A stretch of 64,000 nucleotides of DNA. Source: Saprospiraceae bacterium. Lineage in GTDB: Bacteria; Bacteroidota; Bacteroidia; Chitinophagales; Saprospiraceae. Below, in pieces: positions 55,288 through 64,000 of this stretch. Position numbers and translations under genes: made by a program. How positions within the stretch are numbered: position 1 is the first letter of the stretch; every line of letters starts with the position of its first letter. The stretch is from the NCBI GenBank assembly GCA_026982695.1, contig JALSGS010000034.1, positions 310,001 through 374,000 of the forward strand, in the 5' to 3' direction. The notes beneath the pieces are model-generated. The model saw nothing but the letters and a program-made list of their open reading frames with translations. It searched no databases and had not been told where the DNA came from.

Positions 55288-56103
55288 TTAAATAGGCAGT
55301 GGGCGATCTTGTCCGTGTTGTACGTATTCCACACTGCGGCTAGTTTGCACCGGTTGGCGATACATGCTCATCAAGTCGTACACCAGCTCCGGCACTTGAT
55401 CGTTTACGTTGAGCCCCATGGATTTAGCAAAATTACAAGTAATGGGGAAATCGTGTGTCCAATTTCCTTCTGTAAGCTTTTGTGCCAGCTCAGCAGCGCG
55501 TTCTTTGCTTTGGGTGCGCTGTAGCAGTTCTGTCAGTGTAGCCTGTAACTGGTTGATGGCTTTTTCGGCGATGTCGGCTTTGACGATCATCTGATCGCCT
55601 ATCTTATTGATGTCTTTTTGTTGCAACAGTTTGACGAGTGAAGGGCCAGGCAGCTCGCCCAGTTGGGGGTCTACAGGGCCCAATACGGCGTTGGGACTCA
55701 TGATGATCTCATCAGCTGCTAATGCGATAAGCGTACCGCCGCTCATGGCGTAATGGGGCACGATGACGCGTACCTTGCCCTTTCGGCGATTAATGGCTCT
55801 GGCTATCTGGGTAGCTGCCAGTACCAACCCGCCAGGGGTGTGCAAGATTAGGTCAATATCCTTTTCTGGTGGTGTGGTATCGAGCACGCGCAAGATCTCT
55901 TCACTGTCCTCCATGTTGATGAACTTCATGATGGGAAAGCCTAGAAAACTCATCTGTTCCTGCCGATGGATCAGCAGGATTACACGTGAATTGCGCTCCT
56001 TTTCAATTTGTGCCAACAAGCGCATGCGTCCTGCTTCCAGCATCTTACGCGAGATTACGGGCTGCAGCATCATGATGAGAAAGATGATCCAAAGTGGGTC
56101 CAT
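55288..56103 (-). CDS. SDH-type serine protease of the ClpP/SppA superfamily
   Basis: 271 residues with one N-terminal membrane helix (LWIIFLIMMLQPVI). It belongs to the PF01972-type family (SDH_sah): SRVILLIHRQEQMSFLGFPI, DLILHTPGGLVLAATQIARA and VIVPHYAMSGGTLIALAADE, where the serine of YAMSGGT is the likely nucleophile, then IIMSPNAVLGPVDPQLG. The crotonase-like fold is shared with SppA and ClpP. The active site would face the cytoplasm if only the N-terminus is anchored. The gene is 21 bases after the rhomboid gene, on the same strand, which suggests joint action on membrane proteins; this is inference. Confidence 0.88.
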   Translation of the reverse strand: MDPLWIIFLIMMLQPVISRKMLEAGRMRLLAQIEKERNSRVILLIHRQEQMSFLGFPIMKFINMEDSEEILRVLDTTPPEKDIDLILHTPGGLVLAATQIARAINRRKGKVRVIVPHYAMSGGTLIALAADEIIMSPNAVLGPVDPQLGELPGPSLVKLLQQKDINKIGDQMIVKADIAEKAINQLQATLTELLQRTQSKERAAELAQKLTEGNWTHDFPITCNFAKSMGLNVNDQVPELVYDLMSMYRQPVQTSRSVEYVQHGQDRPLPI

Positions 56104-56124
56104 TGATTCGTTGTTATTTCGTTT

Positions 56125-56847
56125 TTACCACGAATGATAGTTGCGATAGCGATAGTAAGCAGGGTAGCGGCGCTCTTCGTGCACAGGAGGGCGTGCAAAG
56201 AGGCGAAACAGCAATACACCTGCCACAAAGCCGCCTATATGCGCCCAAAAAGCAATACCTGCACCGTTGGTAGGCATTAGCAAGCTGACCGTACCGCTGA
56301 AAAACTGGCCCACAAACCACAGGCCGAGATAGAAAAAGGCCGAAACCTCGAAAAAGTAGGGCATGAAGAAAATAGGCACCATGAAAATGATGGTAGAATG
56401 GGGGAAAAGAAACATATAAGCTCCCATGACTCCGGAAATAGCCCCCGAGGCACCCAAAGCAGGTATCGTACTATCCATATTAAGTGCGTAGTGGGTATAG
56501 CTGGCGGCTACGCCACATAGCAGGTAAAAGATGAGATAACCGCCTTTTCCCATGCGGTCTTCCACGTTGTCGCCAAAAATATACAGCGTCCACATGTTGC
56601 CAATGAAGTGGCCCCAGCCTCCGTGTAAAAACATATTGGTAAAGAAAGGATAGTATTCCCACCACACTAATGGCCGGTTGGGATGGCTAAACTCGGCAGG
56701 CACCAAGCCCCAAGTGCGCACAAAAGATTCGATCCCTTCCGGACCCAACGACAGTTCGTGGAGAAAGACGAACAGATTGATAACAATCAGGGTCCAATTG
56801 ATAAGCGGAAAGGATCGGGAAGGTATGGTATCTTGTATGGGAAACAT
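56125..56847 (-). CDS. Rhomboid-family intramembrane serine protease
   Basis: 240 residues with six membrane helices. The catalytic dyad is visible: serine in LGASGAISGVMGAYMFLFP (GxSG) and histidine in FWAHIGGFVAGVLLF. The HxxGxxHxxxN region HGGWGHFIGNMWTLYIFGDN supplies the oxyanion-hole residues, and the N-terminus PSRSFPLINWTLIVINLFVF is the usual first helix. It cleaves membrane proteins within or beside their membrane helix; the substrates are unknown. It is followed by the SDH-type protease and preceded, 43 bases away, by rpsU. Confidence 0.94.
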   Translation of the reverse strand: MFPIQDTIPSRSFPLINWTLIVINLFVFLHELSLGPEGIESFVRTWGLVPAEFSHPNRPLVWWEYYPFFTNMFLHGGWGHFIGNMWTLYIFGDNVEDRMGKGGYLIFYLLCGVAASYTHYALNMDSTIPALGASGAISGVMGAYMFLFPHSTIIFMVPIFFMPYFFEVSAFFYLGLWFVGQFFSGTVSLLMPTNGAGIAFWAHIGGFVAGVLLFRLFARPPVHEERRYPAYYRYRNYHSW

Positions 56848-57396: not shown

Positions 57397-58323
57397 TCAA
57401 TTTATTGAATGTCCGTCTTTGGAGGCCACATCTTGCGTGCCAGTGGTAGTGAGTGTGTCAAAGTGACGCACTTCTTCGCGCTGAGGTTGAGCCCATCGGC
57501 AAGGCGGTTTACTCATATCACGTCTGGCACCACCGTGATGTTTGACATCCTCATAGCACCGTAGTACTTTTTCTATTTGGCTAATGGTGTATTGATAACC
57601 GATTTGATAGATTTCCTCAATCTTGCTCGTTTCAAATGTGCTGTATTTGTAAAGCGATTTCATGAGTAACAGTACGTCGCACCAGTTAAACTTGGCTGCA
57701 GAGGCTGCGATGAGCACTAAGTCATTGACTCTGTGCAACAACCGGAGTGAGTTGCTAATATGTGCGCGACTCATCATCTTGACGGGCGAGACATAGCTGC
57801 CAATGACAAATTGACACTCGGCAAGTAGTGGCTCTACTGGAAAATTGTTCATGACCCCCCCGTCTACATACCAATGCCCATCAATTTCTACAGGAGTAAA
57901 GATAGGCGGAAAAGCGGCTGAGGCAAGTAAGGGCTTGATTAACGGACCATGATGGAAAAGGACACAGCGTGCTTGTTCAATGTCCGTGGCAGATATGTAT
58001 AGCTTTTTGTTGAGTTCGGAAAAATTATCCAGGGGAAAGAGTTCCTCAAACATTTCGCGGTAAAGCTCAGCATCTAGTAAGCCGGGCTTACTGCGCGAAA
58101 AGTGCTGCCAGCGGAAAATTCTGCTATTGGCTTTGAAGAAGTCGAGCATTTCTTGAGGAGCCATGCCCTTGGCATATAGAGCGCCCACTATGGCACCTGC
58201 ACTAGCTCCTGTAATCACTTGAGGCTCGATACCAGCTTCTTCTAGTGCTTGCAAGGCACCAATGTGGGCCATACCCCGCACGCCTCCGCCGGACAGGGCA
58301 ATGCCAATTTTGAAGGTGTTCAT
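57397..58323 (-). CDS. Patatin-like phospholipase
   Basis: 308 residues. All patatin signatures are present: oxyanion loop ALSGGGVRGMAHIGALQALE (about residues 10-29), nucleophile elbow ITGASAGAIVGALYAKG (GxSxG, serine about 41) and the acid of the Ser-Asp dyad in YVDGGVMNNFPVEPLL (DGG). It has no signal peptide or membrane helix, so it is the cytoplasmic RssA/YchK-like type that may hydrolyse membrane lipids. The last 60 residues are polar and His/Arg rich. A 61-residue small protein lies upstream (38-base gap) and a two-helix membrane protein directly downstream. Confidence 0.92.
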   Translation of the reverse strand: MNTFKIGIALSGGGVRGMAHIGALQALEEAGIEPQVITGASAGAIVGALYAKGMAPQEMLDFFKANSRIFRWQHFSRSKPGLLDAELYREMFEELFPLDNFSELNKKLYISATDIEQARCVLFHHGPLIKPLLASAAFPPIFTPVEIDGHWYVDGGVMNNFPVEPLLAECQFVIGSYVSPVKMMSRAHISNSLRLLHRVNDLVLIAASAAKFNWCDVLLLMKSLYKYSTFETSKIEEIYQIGYQYTISQIEKVLRCYEDVKHHGGARRDMSKPPCRWAQPQREEVRHFDTLTTTGTQDVASKDGHSIN

Positions 58324-58692: not shown

Positions 58693-60615
58693 TCACGGGG
58701 CCATTTCTCTTTGACCCAAAAGAGCTTCGATTTCTTTGCGGTTGAGCACTTCCTGATCCAATAGCTTCTGGGCCATGGCTTCCAGTAGTTCATATTTGTC
58801 CGATAGCAATGCCTTGACTTCTCGATAGGCAGTGTCGATAATATGCTGTATTTCTTCGTCGATGCGTTCTTCCAGTTTTTCTGAGCGTCGCGTGCGGTTT
58901 CCTTCCTGTCCGAGAAAGTCGGGAGTTTGCGTAGTGAGGTTGAGATTGGGCAAGCGGGGGCTCATGCCGTATACGACGACCATGTCATGGGCCAGTCGGT
59001 AGACGCGCGCCAGGTCATTGCTGGCTCCAGTGCTGATTTCGCCAAAGGCGAGTTCTTCAGCGGCGCGACCGCCCAACAGTCCTTTGATTTTGCCCAATAG
59101 TTCTTGGCGTGTCAGCAAATATCGATCTTCCAAGGGCAGTTGCATGGTATAGCCCAGCGCGCCCATACCTCGGGGTACGATGCTGACTTTTTGTACTTCC
59201 TCTGCACCCGGAGTGAAGTAACCCACGATAGCATGGCCACTTTCGTGGTAGGCTACGATGCGTCGTTCGTGTTCGTTGATCAATTTATTTTTCTTCTCCA
59301 AACCAGCAATCACGCGCTCAATGGCTTCTTCGAGGTCACTCATGTGCACTTTTTCATGGCCGTTGCGCACGGCCAGTAATGCGGCCTCGTTACACACATT
59401 GGCAATTTCGGCTCCGGCAAAACCAGGTGTTTGGGCAGCCAATTGGTGCAGATCCACGTCGTCGGCTAACAAGAGCTTGCGTGTATGGACACGGAAAATA
59501 GCCTCACGGCCGCGCAAGTCGGGGCGATCCACTAAGATTTGCCTGTCGAAGCGGCCTGGGCGTAGCAAAGCGGGGTCGAGCACTTCAGGGCGATTGGTAG
59601 CTCCAATGATGAGTACGCCACTGCTCGAGTCGAACCCATCCATTTCTACGAGTAGCTGGTTGAGCGTGTTTTCGCGTTCGTCGTAGCCGCCGCCTGCTAC
59701 TACTCCTGCTGTTCGCTTTTTGCCAATGGCATCGATCTCGTCGATAAATACGATGCACGGGGCATGTGCTTTTGCTTGTTGAAATAAGTCGCGCACACGG
59801 GCTGCACCTACCCCTACGAACATTTCCATAAAATCAGAACCGCTGAGGTGGAAAAAGGGCACACCGGCTTCACCGGCGATGGCACGAGCCAGCAAGGTCT
59901 TTCCTGTACCAGGTGGGCCTACTAATAGGACGCCCTTGGGGAGTTTACCACCCAGTCGCGTGTATTTCTTGGGGTTTTTGAGAAAGTCGACCAATTCTTT
60001 GACTTCCTCAACAGCTTCATCAATGCCGGCTACATCTTGAAAGGTGACTTGCTTGTCGGGGGCTTCGGCATAGATGCGAGCGCGATTTTTGCCAAATTGC
60101 ATGGCGGCCGATGGCCCTCCCATCGTGCCCAGTCTGCGGATGAGTAGTGCCCACAGACCTATGAAAAAGAGAATGGGTAAGATCCAATTGAGCAGAAAGT
60201 CGCGCAGAAAGTTGTCTTGCATCTCACCACTGTAATCGACAGCGGCTGCTTCCAGTAGGGGCAATAGTTCGGGGTCATCGACTTGCGGCAGTCGATTGAC
60301 GTAGAATTGTCGTTGAATTTGGCGCTCAATGGCTTCGATGCGTAGCCTCCACGGTGCTATAGGGCCTGTACTGATGCGAGTGTCGAGGGTGTCTTTCTGC
60401 GTAGCTGTCGAGTCTTGGTAAAGGCCGATGATTTTGTTGGGCAGGATAACTACCTTAGCAACCTTACCAGCGCGCACTTTTTCCTTGAACTCCTTGTATG
60501 AGAGCTGTTGTGAGGCAGCATATCGATTGTCCAGGTACAACCACTGTATGCTAAGTATAAGCGCAAAAATGATGAGGTAATACCACAGAGTCCAGCTGCG
60601 TTGTTGTTTATTCAT
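58693..60615 (-). CDS. ftsH: ATP-dependent zinc metalloprotease FtsH
   Basis: 640 residues from the ATG at 60615 ([20 protein letters not shown]); the open frame extends to 60876, but that part is not FtsH-like. Order: membrane helix 1 (about residues 11-29), periplasmic domain, helix 2 (about 130-150, [20 protein letters not shown]), AAA domain with [18 protein letters not shown] (Walker A), [14 protein letters not shown] (Walker B) and [15 protein letters not shown], and the protease domain with the zinc site [13 protein letters not shown]. It degrades unassembled membrane proteins and short-lived regulators. Two 7-of-8 -7 boxes lie upstream (60711-60718 and 60734-60741, minus strand). Confidence 0.96.
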
Positions 60616-60865: not shown

Positions 60866-61894
60866 TTAAAGGCCAAATCTGCGCTGTAAGGCGCTGCACA
60901 ACTTGGCTCGTACTTCTCTGAGGGCTTTGTCCACCTCAGCTTTGTTGGTCCGTTTTACTTGAGCAATTTCCTCGGCAGTAAGCCCTTCCTGTACGGCTAG
61001 GTCAAAGATGGTACGCTGAAAGGGCGGTAGTTGGGTCAGTACGGCCATAATCACTTCATTGGCTTCTTCTCGAGAGAGCTCATCGTCGAGTTTTTCGAGC
61101 AACTCGCTGGCTTCTTCTTCGTCAAATACGTCTTCCAGGTGATAGTAGCGGTCGCTATGTAGATGAGCCAGCATGTCTTGTTGCTCGTCGTGGAATTGGC
61201 GCTGAATTTTTTGTAGTTGTGTGGCGTCAAGCGTATCCAAATCTTCTTTTTGGGGCACTTGCTGCTCGTGAAGCTCTTGATCGAGGAGCTCATCGGCTAA
61301 TTGAAATGCCCATAGGTCAAATTGCTCGCTGCTGCTGGGTGCTTGCTCAATTTGTTCGTATATCTGGTGATGTAGTTTTTCTTCGAGTTGCGGCAAAGAC
61401 ACGGTGCCTTTTTCGATGTGGTGACTAGCTTCAGCCATGTGTAGCCGGCGTTCCATGTATTCGCTGATATTGGGGATAGTTTTGCGCAGCAAGTCGTTGA
61501 ATGCCTGCTGATCTCCTTCCGTTTTGTACATGCGCAGGAAGCCGGTAGCACTTCGTGCGAAATCTTTTTGGCGATTTTTTCGCTTGTACAGGTAGTCTTT
61601 TCGTTCTTTTTCCAGTGCGTGTTTCAGGGCTTTTTGGAATTTTTTGAAGGTGGCCTGGAGTGCTTTGGTAGCATCTTTGTCTTTTTCGCTGGCATATACA
61701 GTACCGGACTTGAGGTCTATAGAGTAAGCCACTCGTATCCAAATATTGCCACTTGGGTTGATAAATACTTCAAGAGTGGGCTTTTTGCTGTATTTTTTGA
61801 AAAACTTTTCAATTTTTTTAGTGTGTTGATGCACCAGCTTTTCTACTTGTGCTTTTTTTACCTCTGCGGCATGGATGTGCAGTTGTACTTCCAT
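60866..61894 (-). CDS. HPF/RaiA-like ribosome-binding domain fused to sigma-factor-like helices
   Basis: 342 residues. Residues 1-108 look like the S30AE fold of hibernation factors: VQLHIHAAEVKKAQVEKLVH, PTLEVFINPSGNIWIRVAYS, VYASEKDKDATKALQATFKK. Residues about 130-210 are helical and recall sigma region 2 (RKTIPNISEYMERRLHMAEA, QFDLWAFQLADELLDQELHE). A long acidic linker follows, and residues 283-338 match sigma region 4 with its helix-turn-helix: LTQLPPFQRTIFDLAVQEGL, TAEEIAQVKRTNKAEVDKAL. The 63434-64000 gene is a paralogue of the C-terminal part. It might link ribosome state to transcription; that is inference. A terminator and a near-consensus -7 box lie just upstream, so it has its own transcript. 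Confidence 0.8.
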   Translation of the reverse strand: MEVQLHIHAAEVKKAQVEKLVHQHTKKIEKFFKKYSKKPTLEVFINPSGNIWIRVAYSIDLKSGTVYASEKDKDATKALQATFKKFQKALKHALEKERKDYLYKRKNRQKDFARSATGFLRMYKTEGDQQAFNDLLRKTIPNISEYMERRLHMAEASHHIEKGTVSLPQLEEKLHHQIYEQIEQAPSSSEQFDLWAFQLADELLDQELHEQQVPQKEDLDTLDATQLQKIQRQFHDEQQDMLAHLHSDRYYHLEDVFDEEEASELLEKLDDELSREEANEVIMAVLTQLPPFQRTIFDLAVQEGLTAEEIAQVKRTNKAEVDKALREVRAKLCSALQRRFGL

Positions 61895-62049: not shown

Positions 62050-62988
62050 TTATTGATTATGGATGATCCGGTCTTTGAACTTGCGTAGGGTGTTCAGCAA
62101 GGTGTCCATGGGCTGGATGACGTCTTGCCCTTCGTTGATGCCACGGCGGATTTCCTTGATGGCTTTGGCCAAGGTAACAAATTCCTTATCGCGGCGACCA
62201 TACCCCATCTCTTCGGCCAAGATCAACTGATATTGTGCATTTTCGAGCAAGGTCAGAATAGTGGCCTTTTGCTCTTTGTGGGTGAGCAAGCTTTGTGCTT
62301 GCTGGAGTAAGACTTCAGCCCTTAAAATGGGCAGTGGTACGATGATTTCCTTGACTACTAGTGCTTTAAGTGCTTCGCCAATGGTGAGAGCAGCCATTTC
62401 AAAATTGTCTTTGTCCAAAAAAGAGACGGCCAGCCGCATGGCATCTGGATAAGCACCTAATGGTATTTTGGTGATGGTAATCACCGCTTCACTGGCCATG
62501 CCTTCTAACAATTGGCGTGCTGCCTGGTACTGATCTTCCTTGATGGCTTCTTTTACGGCTTTTTTCAGTTTTTTGACCCCCTCCAAATCGGTAATGAGTT
62601 CCACTTGGCGCGCATCGACACTAATGGGCACTTCTACTAATTCGGGATCTCGCGCCAAGAGCACTTCTAGCTTGCCTATTGCGCTTTCCAGTTGCTTGAG
62701 GGCTTCTTCTTTGTCCTGATTAGCAATGGCTTCCAGTGCTTGTCGTGTTTGGGCAATAGCACTTATGGCTTCTTCGACCAGTTCGTGTTCTTGGATGGCC
62801 AGCTCTTTACGGCTTAGTTCAGCTACGCGGTTTTGCAGCGTGTCGCGCGACATGCCCAGGGAGTCAGGCAAAGCCATGCGTACTTGTTCAATATCTGTGC
62901 TTTCTGCGTGATTGGTTGTTTTGCCACAGCTAGCTATGCCAAAAGCCAATGAGATCATCAGAATCCCAAGGGTAGTTGTGCGATTCAT
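62050..62988 (-). CDS. YfdX-family lipoprotein
   Basis: 312 residues from the ATG at 62988; ATG at 63015 adds nine residues. MNRTTTLGILMISLAFGIAS is followed by the lipobox cysteine (GIASCGK), so the protein is lipid-anchored outside the cytoplasm. The body is almost all helical: EEAISAIAQTRQALEAIANQ, DKEEALKQLESAIGKLEVLL, then KLKKAVKEAIKEDQYQAARQ and ALTIGEALKALVVKEIIVPL, the helical-hairpin pattern of the YfdX family, whose E. coli member is under EvgA acid-stress control. Exact function is unknown. It lies between two genes for sigma-region-4-like proteins and has a terminator after it. Confidence 0.78.
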   Translation of the reverse strand: MNRTTTLGILMISLAFGIASCGKTTNHAESTDIEQVRMALPDSLGMSRDTLQNRVAELSRKELAIQEHELVEEAISAIAQTRQALEAIANQDKEEALKQLESAIGKLEVLLARDPELVEVPISVDARQVELITDLEGVKKLKKAVKEAIKEDQYQAARQLLEGMASEAVITITKIPLGAYPDAMRLAVSFLDKDNFEMAALTIGEALKALVVKEIIVPLPILRAEVLLQQAQSLLTHKEQKATILTLLENAQYQLILAEEMGYGRRDKEFVTLAKAIKEIRRGINEGQDVIQPMDTLLNTLRKFKDRIIHNQ

Positions 62989-63121
62989 GACTTTTACTGT
63001 TTTATTCCATTTCATGGCTCGATATTTTTTGTTTTAGGCTATTGATGACACACACCATGTCCTTCCCCTTCAGCTGTCTTTTAACCGAAAGGCAAAGAGG
63101 TGTCTACATGGCAGGGTGTGA

Positions 63122-63421
63122 TTAGCTGTTGCCAGCTAATAGCTGGGAAGGTGCAGGTTGATAGTGTACTTCGCTTATTTCGGCTGCAAAGCCTTTCTGA
63201 CCCGATAGTGCCTCAAGTAAAAAGAGGTGTGCGTGTACGCTAGTGGTGTCGTCACCTACCACGAAGTAGCCTAGGCATTCCACGTGATCAGGCGCTAATT
63301 TCTTTTTGCTATGCAACTCAAGCCATCCATCAGCTCGAGCGATCCATTCGGTGGCGAAGCCTTGCTTTCGGGCTTCTTTAATAGCTTGAGTCAAAGAGCG
63401 AAATCGGGTCAGTGGCTTCAT
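63122..63421 (-). CDS. Small alpha/beta protein of unknown function
   Basis: 99 residues. FRSLTQAIKEARKQGFATEW, then LHSKKKLAPDHVECLGYFVV and LFLLEALSGQKGFAAEISEV. The layout recalls the short Bacteroidota proteins of about 95-100 residues often labelled 'phosphoribosylpyrophosphate synthetase' without support; the likeness is by pattern only. It starts 12 bases after the stop of the partial sigma-like gene and is probably on the same transcript. Confidence 0.65.
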   Translation of the reverse strand: MKPLTRFRSLTQAIKEARKQGFATEWIARADGWLELHSKKKLAPDHVECLGYFVVGDDTTSVHAHLFLLEALSGQKGFAAEISEVHYQPAPSQLLAGNS

Positions 63422-63433
63422 GTGCCAAGACTT

Positions 63434-64000
63434 TTAGCTCACCTTTTCAGGTAGGATACGCCAATGTAACAAAGCTTGCTTGATGCGTTGGCGCACAGCG
63501 TGGATGGTTTGTTCCACTTCTGTGGCATTCATGTTTTTGATGTAGGCAACTTCTTCAGTAGTAAGTCCTTGTAGTATATGCAGGTCAAAGATGGATCGTT
63601 GTTGCATGGGTAGGCGTGTCAGTGCCATCTTGATGCGTTTGCGCACTTTTCGATCGATGGGGATATTGTCGGCACTGGCTTCTTCTTCGATCTTTTTGAG
63701 CAGGGCTTCTTCGTCTGCATCGATCAATTCGATGTCTTCGGTGGTGTATTCATCAAGGTGGTAAGAGATGTCGTCGAGTTCTTCTATGAGTACCAAGTCG
63801 CCATCGGCATCCACAGAGAAGTGCTCTTCCATTTCTTTCATTTCACGGGCAGTCCACTCTTCGATACTTACCGCACGTGCATTTTTTTCTTTTTCTGCTT
63901 CGCGCAACTGCTCGTCGAGCACTTCTTCAGCGATTTTGTATATCCAAACTTTGAAATTTTGTTGGTGTTCGAGTGCGTCCTGGTCATATCGTTCCCAAGC
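63434..64000 (-). CDS. Sigma-region-4-like protein, 3' part (paralogue of 60866-61894)
   Basis: 188 codons are visible; the frame is open to the right edge, so the start and any N-terminal HPF-like domain are outside the window (the first in-frame GTG, 63922, is not credible as a start). NFKVWIYKIAEEVLDEQLRE matches FDLWAFQLADELLDQELHE of the neighbour, an acidic linker follows, and TRLPMQQRSIFDLHILQGLT with TEEVAYIKNMNATEVEQTIH is the region-4-like helix-turn-helix. The order and spacing of blocks are the same as in the full-length paralogue 1.5 kb away. Whether it is a true sigma factor is doubtful, as no clear region 2 promoter-melting motif is seen. Confidence 0.75.
   Translation of the reverse strand, partial: AWERYDQDALEHQQNFKVWIYKIAEEVLDEQLREAEKEKNARAVSIEEWTAREMKEMEEHFSVDADGDLVLIEELDDISYHLDEYTTEDIELIDADEEALLKKIEEEASADNIPIDRKVRKRIKMALTRLPMQQRSIFDLHILQGLTTEEVAYIKNMNATEVEQTIHAVRQRIKQALLHWRILPEKVS

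Follow-up and report, generated by a model that had tools for sequence, protein, structure and literature searches.

The window analysed here, i.e., the whole stretch of 64,000 nucleotides from a Saprospiraceae bacterium (contig JALSGS010000034.1, positions 310,001 to 374,000), carried at its right end five minus-strand genes in the order paralogue, 99-aa protein, yfdX, fusion and ftsH. The fusion joined an S30AE (HPF/RaiA) domain to a sigma-factor-like module. The features recognized were:

63434–64000, minus strand: C-terminal 188 aa of a paralogue of the fusion (full length 370 aa), continuing past the window end as L002:1465-2577:-
63122–63421, minus strand: 99-aa protein between paralogue and yfdX, with no Pfam match better than chance; a genome of the same genus has a relative in the equivalent position
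62050–63015, minus strand: YfdX-family protein (PF10938, E 2.2e-28), the sole YfdX match in the genome
60866–61894, minus strand: S30AE–sigma fusion protein, 342 aa (ORF, domain profiles, AlphaFold, structure alignment)
61586–61888, minus strand: S30AE (HPF/RaiA) domain of the fusion, residues 3–103 (Z 13.9 to 4hei_A and 8rd8_D; PDB profile search; hhalign)
61250–61540, minus strand: sigma2-like part, about residues 119–215, with an acidic 2.3/2.4 stretch, net −5 here (SigW alignment from residue 114; charge test)
61076–61249, minus strand: acidic linker, about residues 216–273, the least conserved part, 55% identical to the same-genus orthologue (family alignments)
60878–61075, minus strand: sigma4-like part with a helix-turn-helix, about residues 274–339 (PF08281, 30.2 bits, residues 281–332; SigW alignment)
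58693–60615, minus strand: ftsH, likely start 60615, directly downstream of the fusion and one of two in the genome (family match, genome count)

A YfdX family match was found in one of 14 control genomes. The same-genus genome had both fusion copies, with yfdX between them. Downstream of ftsH there were a patatin-like phospholipase and two proteases, one of the rhomboid type and one a ClpP-like SDH protease (57397–58323 and 55288–56847, minus strand); both proteases recurred near other fused genes.

The fusion ORF was intact, with an ATG at 61894, a stop at 60866 and 342 codons for amino acids. Its same-genus orthologue had equal length and start, and was 75% identical. In the AlphaFold model (mean pLDDT 90.0, pTM 0.78), the chain began with a beta-alpha-beta-beta-beta-alpha domain and continued through sigma2 and a linker to sigma4. 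The paralogue, modeled in its same-genus version (mean pLDDT 86.6, pTM 0.75), had the same domain order, and its VIA-align picture was similar. HPF, sigma and PhyR folds were among the best VIA-align matches listed for the fusion model. A whole-length family profile matched HPFs as well as ECF sigma factors, the latter with a best value of 1e-9. The initial annotation had placed a ribosome hibernation fold and sigma-like regions in one chain. The two folds stood, with the N-terminal S30AE fold and the C-terminal sigma4 helix-turn-helix both present in the AlphaFold/VIA-align analysis; the layout was amended to S30AE, sigma2, acidic linker and sigma4, the last three forming a whole ECF-type module.

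The identity of the N-terminal half as S30AE was weak by single sequence and firm once relatives were included. On its own, the fusion scored 15.5 bits with PF02482 and 16.0 bits with TIGR00741, below the curated cut-offs of 23.7 and 40.9, respectively. Among 18 N-terminal halves of the family, PF02482 matched 16 and TIGR00741 matched 10 at E ≤ 0.1. A profile of these 18 halves against all PDB sequences gave 24 matches at E ≤ 10, of which 21 were HPF/YfiA-type chains, including HI0257, labeled there as “hypothetical protein”. Aligned by hhalign to ten canonical HPFs, the N-halves reached E 5.5e-8 and 94.8% probability, a figure that stands without a control alignment. In VIA-align, residues 3–103 superposed on Vibrio cholerae HPF (Z 13.9, rmsd 1.7, 91 residues) and on ribosome-bound RaiA (8rd8; Z 13.9, rmsd 1.8, 97 residues). 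Model, VIA-align and profiles thus agreed with the fold first assigned to the N-terminal 108 residues; its extent was corrected, the domain ending near residue 103. The N-half belongs to a divergent S30AE subfamily, in which much of the canonical HPF signature is missing and many members have an ERKDYxYKRK motif. The S30AE fold and the basic C-terminal helix of that domain suggest that the fusion may bind ribosomes.

The region-2-like helical part recognized initially proved to be a sigma2 fold. Together with sigma4 (residues 114–339) it aligned to anti-sigma-bound SigW (5wuq_B) with Z 13.8 and rmsd 3.2 over 153 residues, the best among the sigma rows. The C-terminal sigma region 4 with its helix-turn-helix was likewise borne out by a Sigma70_r4_2 score of 30.2 bits, above the cut-off of 25.7. 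PhyR structures gave Z values of 8 to 10.4, with 9cb6 on top (10.4), below SigW and middling for a helical fold. Against the TIGR02937 cut-off of 42.9 bits, the window fusion had 26.0 bits, the C-terminal 188 aa of the paralogue 42.0, and seven further relatives at most 37.9, so that none of the nine family proteins scanned reached it. Between sigma2 and sigma4 the family had an insert tens of residues long, which was acidic in most rows. The motif DxDGDL..EELDDISY, exact or as a variant, lay there in the majority of rows of the alignment found by profile. It was missing from the window copy and its same-genus orthologue and, by eye, also from the G806 and G811 fusions. From its letters alone, the DGDGDL motif was considered as a possible EF-hand.

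The residues with which ECF sigma factors contact promoters were largely lost. Charges and contacts were counted on 15 fused and 78 unfused rows, with seven duplicates removed and G806 and G811 left out; an earlier charge test had used 100 family rows, duplicates still included. The comparison set of 19 ECFs was small and selected for matching the window protein, and a 20th row (L028), seemingly a wrong ORF, was dropped from it. Over the 21 alignment columns after the conserved Trp, the mean net charge of sigma2.3–2.4 was +3.21 in these 19 ECFs, −2.27 in the 15 fused and −3.03 in the 78 unfused relatives. The region 2.3 Asn was present in 16/19 ECFs, the position being Glu, Gln or Arg in 14/15 fused rows. 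A recognition-helix Lys/Arg was found in 89% of the ECFs and in 0% of the 15 fused rows, 73% of which were acidic there. Of the ECF-conserved positions, the fused proteins (again without G806 and G811) kept a fraction of 0.44 in sigma4.1, 0.28 in sigma4.2, 0.17 in sigma2.3–2.4, and 0.28 in sigma2.1–2.2, where the alignment is uncertain at such divergence. The promoter recognition proposed in the initial annotation was therefore weakened, the basic and Asn residues of 2.3/2.4 and 4.2 found in the 19 ECFs being mostly lost or acidic across the family. With the promoter-contact positions largely lost and sigma4.1 best kept, a sigma mimic is likelier than a working sigma factor, and the sigma-like half, as judged from its residues, looks more like the former.

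We weighed against this a working alternative sigma factor held by ribosomes, which would be silent when bound through its S30AE half and, on release, would direct RNA polymerase to stress promoters. The complete sigma2–sigma4 fold and the Sigma70_r4_2 score above cut-off agree with such a factor, as does the paralogue, whose score almost reached the TIGR02937 cut-off. Further, the sigma4 recognition-helix stretch of the window copy had a net charge of +4, so that it may still contact DNA. However, the positions which are basic or Asn in the ECFs were mostly replaced in 2.3/2.4, often by Glu/Asp, the TIGR02937 cut-off was missed by all nine proteins, and sigma2 and sigma4 were separated by the insert, acidic in most rows. 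We consider a true sigma factor quite unlikely.

The paralogue was 30% identical to the window fusion and had the same layout. Its S30AE part scored 23.4 bits against the Pfam cut-off of 23.7, and 23.8 bits with its neighbors in the frame, a narrow pass. The two copies differed in what they conserved relative to their same-genus orthologues. In the window copy, identity was 82% in the S30AE half, 100% in the stretch after S30AE, 81% in sigma4 and 55% in the linker; in the paralogue, the acidic stretch was 82% identical and the S30AE half only 59%. From this one genome pair, the paralogues seem to divide the work, the window copy keeping S30AE after losing the acidic motif, and the other keeping the motif with a looser S30AE.

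A search for the domain pair beyond the window, as suggested in the initial annotation, showed that fused genes recur in Bacteroidota, with 17 full-length genes in 13 genomes. A family profile run over 396 genomes of the host order found 14 of them in 10 genomes (two each in G000, G001, G040 and G061, one each in G055, G259, G305, G218, G292 and G087). The others were in L079 (Saprospirales MAG) and in G811 and G806 (Flavobacteriales MAGs); L077, L078, L080 and L081, having contigs of equal length, were taken as G001, G218, G061 and G040, and counted once. A probable further fused gene in G1093, cut by a contig end, is outside the 17. The G806 fusion (331 aa) shared 55% identity with that of G811 and 27% with the window copy’s same-genus orthologue, and both genomes had the order yfdX – yfdX – fusion – dnaJ. 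In a phylum survey of 395 genomes, nine had a match over sigma2 and sigma4, fused in two; 19 of the 28 matching genomes matched in sigma4 only, and these look like ordinary sigma factors. The fusion is thus rare across the phylum. A plasmid origin was rejected, as no match with E ≤ 1e-3 turned up in 72,556 plasmid records.

In a tree of the sigma part (15 fused and 34 stand-alone rows; seven duplicates, G806 and G811 left out), the 15 fused rows needed 2 changes, against a mean of 13.6 for shuffled labels, and 0/500 shuffles were as low. The fused rows are compatible with one origin, in a tree made by a quick method and with many open forks. An accident or a dead gene, whether from a fold likeness arising by chance, an assembly error or read-through across two genes, would agree with single-sequence S30AE scores under the curated cut-offs. 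It is contradicted by the 17 full-length genes in 13 genomes, by saturated synonymous change to the same-genus orthologue (pS 0.78) vs a dN of 0.16, and by models of high confidence in which each half has independent matches, which makes it highly improbable.

The genes around the fusions pointed toward stress protection. Near 13 fused loci (161 kb) we detected an SDH-type protease at nine, DnaJ at seven, rhomboid at six, FtsH and Trx at five each, Hsp20 at four, and ClpB and YfdX at two each; since the probes were drawn from fused loci, each count includes the probe’s own locus, without which the numbers out of 12 were 8 (SDH protease), 6 (DnaJ), 5 (rhomboid), 4 (FtsH), 4 (Trx), 3 (Hsp20), 1 (ClpB) and 1 (YfdX). 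The YfdX, FtsH, rhomboid, SDH protease and patatin probes came from L075, those for ClpB, KefB-like and MBL from L068, and those for Hsp20, DnaJ, Trx and CbpM-like from L070. The probes were identified through Pfam; all were chosen after the neighborhoods had been inspected, and G806 and G811 were left out of the counts. Twenty control stretches (260 kb), from hand-picked places in three genomes (G000, G055, G305), gave ClpB once, patatin twice, MBL once, histidine kinase three times and response regulator twice, and zero matches for the other probes. The fused loci are not independent, with three from one genus, four from another and two from a third; counted by genus, FtsH, ClpB, Hsp20, DnaJ or Trx lay near a fused gene in 5/6. 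Three fused loci, of two kinds, had no match to any of these five probes: that of G292, and in G040 and G061 that of the second copy. Its place among heat- and stress-protection genes indicates that the fusion may signal stopped protein synthesis to the transcription machinery.

The two halves were also found as separate genes. A same-strand cassette yfdX – sigma-like – hdeD – S30AE was present in G272, G393 and G805. In L153 the sigma-like, hdeD and S30AE genes were consecutive, with yfdX elsewhere on the same contig, and in G121 the sigma-like gene lay on a different contig from yfdX – hdeD – S30AE. The small S30AE proteins stopped at an ERKDYxYKRKR-type motif, where the fused chains continue into sigma2. 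This S30AE type was matched in 5 of 38 sigma-like-bearing genomes unselected for it, in two of the five as fusions, showing that the S30AE/sigma-like pair is not obligatory; with 33/38 genomes having none, the sigma-like half seems often to work alone.

The small S30AE subfamily (about 110 aa) included L059:2049-2381:+, L058:5217-5561:-, L061:6116-6445:-, L208:1962-2324:-, L209, L210, L246 and L247. Several of its genes were beside hdeD, yfdX, lon or a KefB-like antiporter, as stress-island HPFs distinct from canonical HPF. Further small S30AE genes were located after lon (G803), adjoining hdeD (G1033) and near a KefB-like antiporter (G1142).

Stand-alone sigma-like relatives were sought by a contig scan for EELDD[IQ]SY, using an 8-relative alignment subset, as the 20-relative alignment was too divergent. 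The scan found 95 loci, of which 80 were kept, and 75/80 had an ORF lacking the S30AE half; relatives without the motif, including the window copy, are undetectable in this way, and the 80 loci have the motif by construction. The stand-alone proteins were mostly about 220–270 aa long and from Bacteroidota, plus one Chlorobiota MAG and two Desulfobulbaceae MAGs.

Many members of this wide family with the acidic DGDGDL..EELDDISY motif were in Flavobacteriaceae (L082–L156, e.g., L082:9947-10717:+), and the six stand-alone proteins scanned were all below the TIGR02937 cut-off. Near the 75 stand-alone loci we found histidine kinases (32), CRP-type response regulators (32), Usp (27), YtxH (16), BON (12) and Hsp20 (12). 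Directly after the stand-alone sigma-like gene, 22 loci encoded a protein of 131–141 aa (L143:10760-11185:+, L111:10766-11161:+), with a relative in 29/75. Two of these proteins were scanned with Pfam and one with NCBIfam, all without a match; the family is a candidate partner. Two other neighbor families were without Pfam match: one of about 122 aa (L080:11053-11421:+, L101:11404-11778:+), at 4/13 fused and 12/75 stand-alone loci, and one of about 163 aa (L113:9341-9832:+), at 15/75 stand-alone loci and no fused locus.

With respect to canonical HPF, the window genome encoded a separate one, adjoining a tyrosine recombinase gene read as xerC. Of 18 genomes carrying S30AE genes of the divergent type, whether fused, split or small, 15 had an S30AE match that exceeded the Pfam cut-off, and among the fused genomes checked 9/12 had a canonical HPF. 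In the family f5, three genomes with the fusion (G040, G061, G087) had no canonical HPF detectable by a Pfam search that also missed their own fused S30AE halves, and thus detects only less divergent S30AE, and G074, without the fusion, had one. These four MAGs, 82–98% complete, two of the three fused ones being from one genus, give a hint that the fusion might be able to stand in for HPF. A simple replacement of HPF was rejected as a general explanation, given the matches in 15/18 genomes, and would apply at most to f5.

The fusion could be chiefly a hibernation factor, with an S30AE half that silences ribosomes and a sigma-derived half re-used structurally, for dimerizing ribosomes, like the C-terminal domain of long HPF, or for tethering RNA polymerase to sleeping ribosomes, leaving promoter choice unaffected. 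The initial annotation had offered a related second idea, a hibernation factor that took up a sigma-like part for dimerization; its hibernation half is kept in play by the three genomes with the fusion and no detectable canonical HPF. The pattern in f5 would fit this, as would the loss of DNA-contact residues and the conservation within the window copy, where S30AE and the stretch following it exceeded the 75% overall identity to the orthologue, as did sigma4. On the other hand, canonical HPF coexists with the fusion in most genomes checked, so that replacement is not general. Also, the much commoner stand-alone sigma-like relatives, often near two-component and universal-stress genes, suggest a regulatory role for this half. 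We regard a chiefly hibernating function as rather unlikely, though less so than a true sigma factor.

Our preferred reading, with a probability of roughly 40%, is that the fusion is a conserved stress protein, a ribosome-docking sigma mimic that ties the state of ribosomes to stress transcription. It builds on the observed folds, recurrence, gene setting and residue loss; docking, the partner and the direction of signaling are its predicted parts. When translation stops, as in heat or starvation, the S30AE half would dock on idle ribosomes, in their mRNA/tRNA channel. This would alter the binding of the sigma-like half to its partner, either an anti-sigma factor or core RNA polymerase, much as PhyR titrates NepR. 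The state of ribosomes would thereby reach the transcription of the surrounding proteostasis genes, i.e., ftsH and yfdX here, and hsp20, dnaJ, clpB and trx elsewhere. That the protein senses idle ribosomes and alters transcription, as first put forward in the initial annotation, is a reasonable hypothesis, strengthened by the split pairs in one cassette and by the chaperone and protease neighbors. More tentatively, such a ribosome-gated switch might operate in Bacteroidota, and perhaps in Chlorobiota via separate genes, with the disabled sigma half controlling the access of anti-sigma factor or RNA polymerase, and the loss of translation leading to transcription of chaperone/protease islands.

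Translation status is known to reach transcription mainly via (p)ppGpp, attenuation and the turnover of heat-shock sigma factors. A protein that combines a hibernation fold with a sigma fold would link the two directly. With it, stress islands of the yfdX/hdeD/ftsH type would also gain a candidate regulator. Beyond the fusion there is a wider sigma-like family with DGDGDL..EELDDISY, whose genes often adjoin those for universal-stress, BON, YtxH and two-component proteins.

The initial annotation knew of no described system with this layout, and the open-access literature did not contradict it: within open-access text, searched with queries of which some were imperfectly worded, no description of an S30AE–sigma layout was found. 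In the general stress response of alphaproteobacteria (PhyR/NepR/EcfG), the sigma-like domain of PhyR titrates NepR. The fusion resembles PhyR in having a sigma2–sigma4-like fold outside a canonical sigma factor and joined to a sensor domain (Z 10.4 to 9cb6). However, PhyR has a receiver domain and is alphaproteobacterial, whereas the fusion is from Bacteroidota and has S30AE in the sensor position, with no Response_reg among its Pfam matches listed at E ≤ 10. On inspection, no NepR-like gene was noticed beside the fusions. With ECF sigma factors it shares the whole sigma2–linker–sigma4 fold (Z 13.8 to SigW), and differs in the largely lost promoter-contact residues, the insert between sigma2 and sigma4, the additional S30AE and the missed TIGR02937 cut-off.

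The N-terminal domain resembles HPF/YfiA/RaiA structures in fold and topology (Z about 8 to 14) and in its basic C-terminal helix. The fusion differs as a divergent subfamily, below curated cut-offs, with a sigma2–sigma4 module appended. Short HPF has nothing after S30AE, unlike the fusion. Long HPF has after S30AE a C-terminal domain, to which PMC9522360 gives a dimerizing role; in the fusion the sigma fold is in that place, and the long-HPF dimerization domain was not among its Pfam matches listed at E ≤ 10. Hibernation genes are known in stress operons, and Balon operons can hold RaiA, Hsp20, HdeD, OsmY and alternative sigma70 genes, according to PMC10901736. This operon content was the nearest published link to an S30AE–sigma fusion in the text covered.

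The transmissible-type heat resistance islands (tLST, or locus of heat resistance) share with the surroundings of fused or split genes yfdX, hdeD, trx, hsp20, an additional ftsH and a KefB-like antiporter, taking the tLST gene content from the portion of PMC8290217 seen, which names no S30AE or sigma gene as part of it. The tLST core dna-hsp20-clpG was not found here, as judged by Hsp20 and ClpB probes, which had no match in the window or in the L075 stretch around the paralogue, and the fusion locus is in Bacteroidota. By a stricter view, the fusion could be a variant within the S30AE proteins. It falls outside each family considered by a defining test (S30AE cut-off, long HPF, ECF sigma, PhyR, tLST), yet it is made of two known folds.
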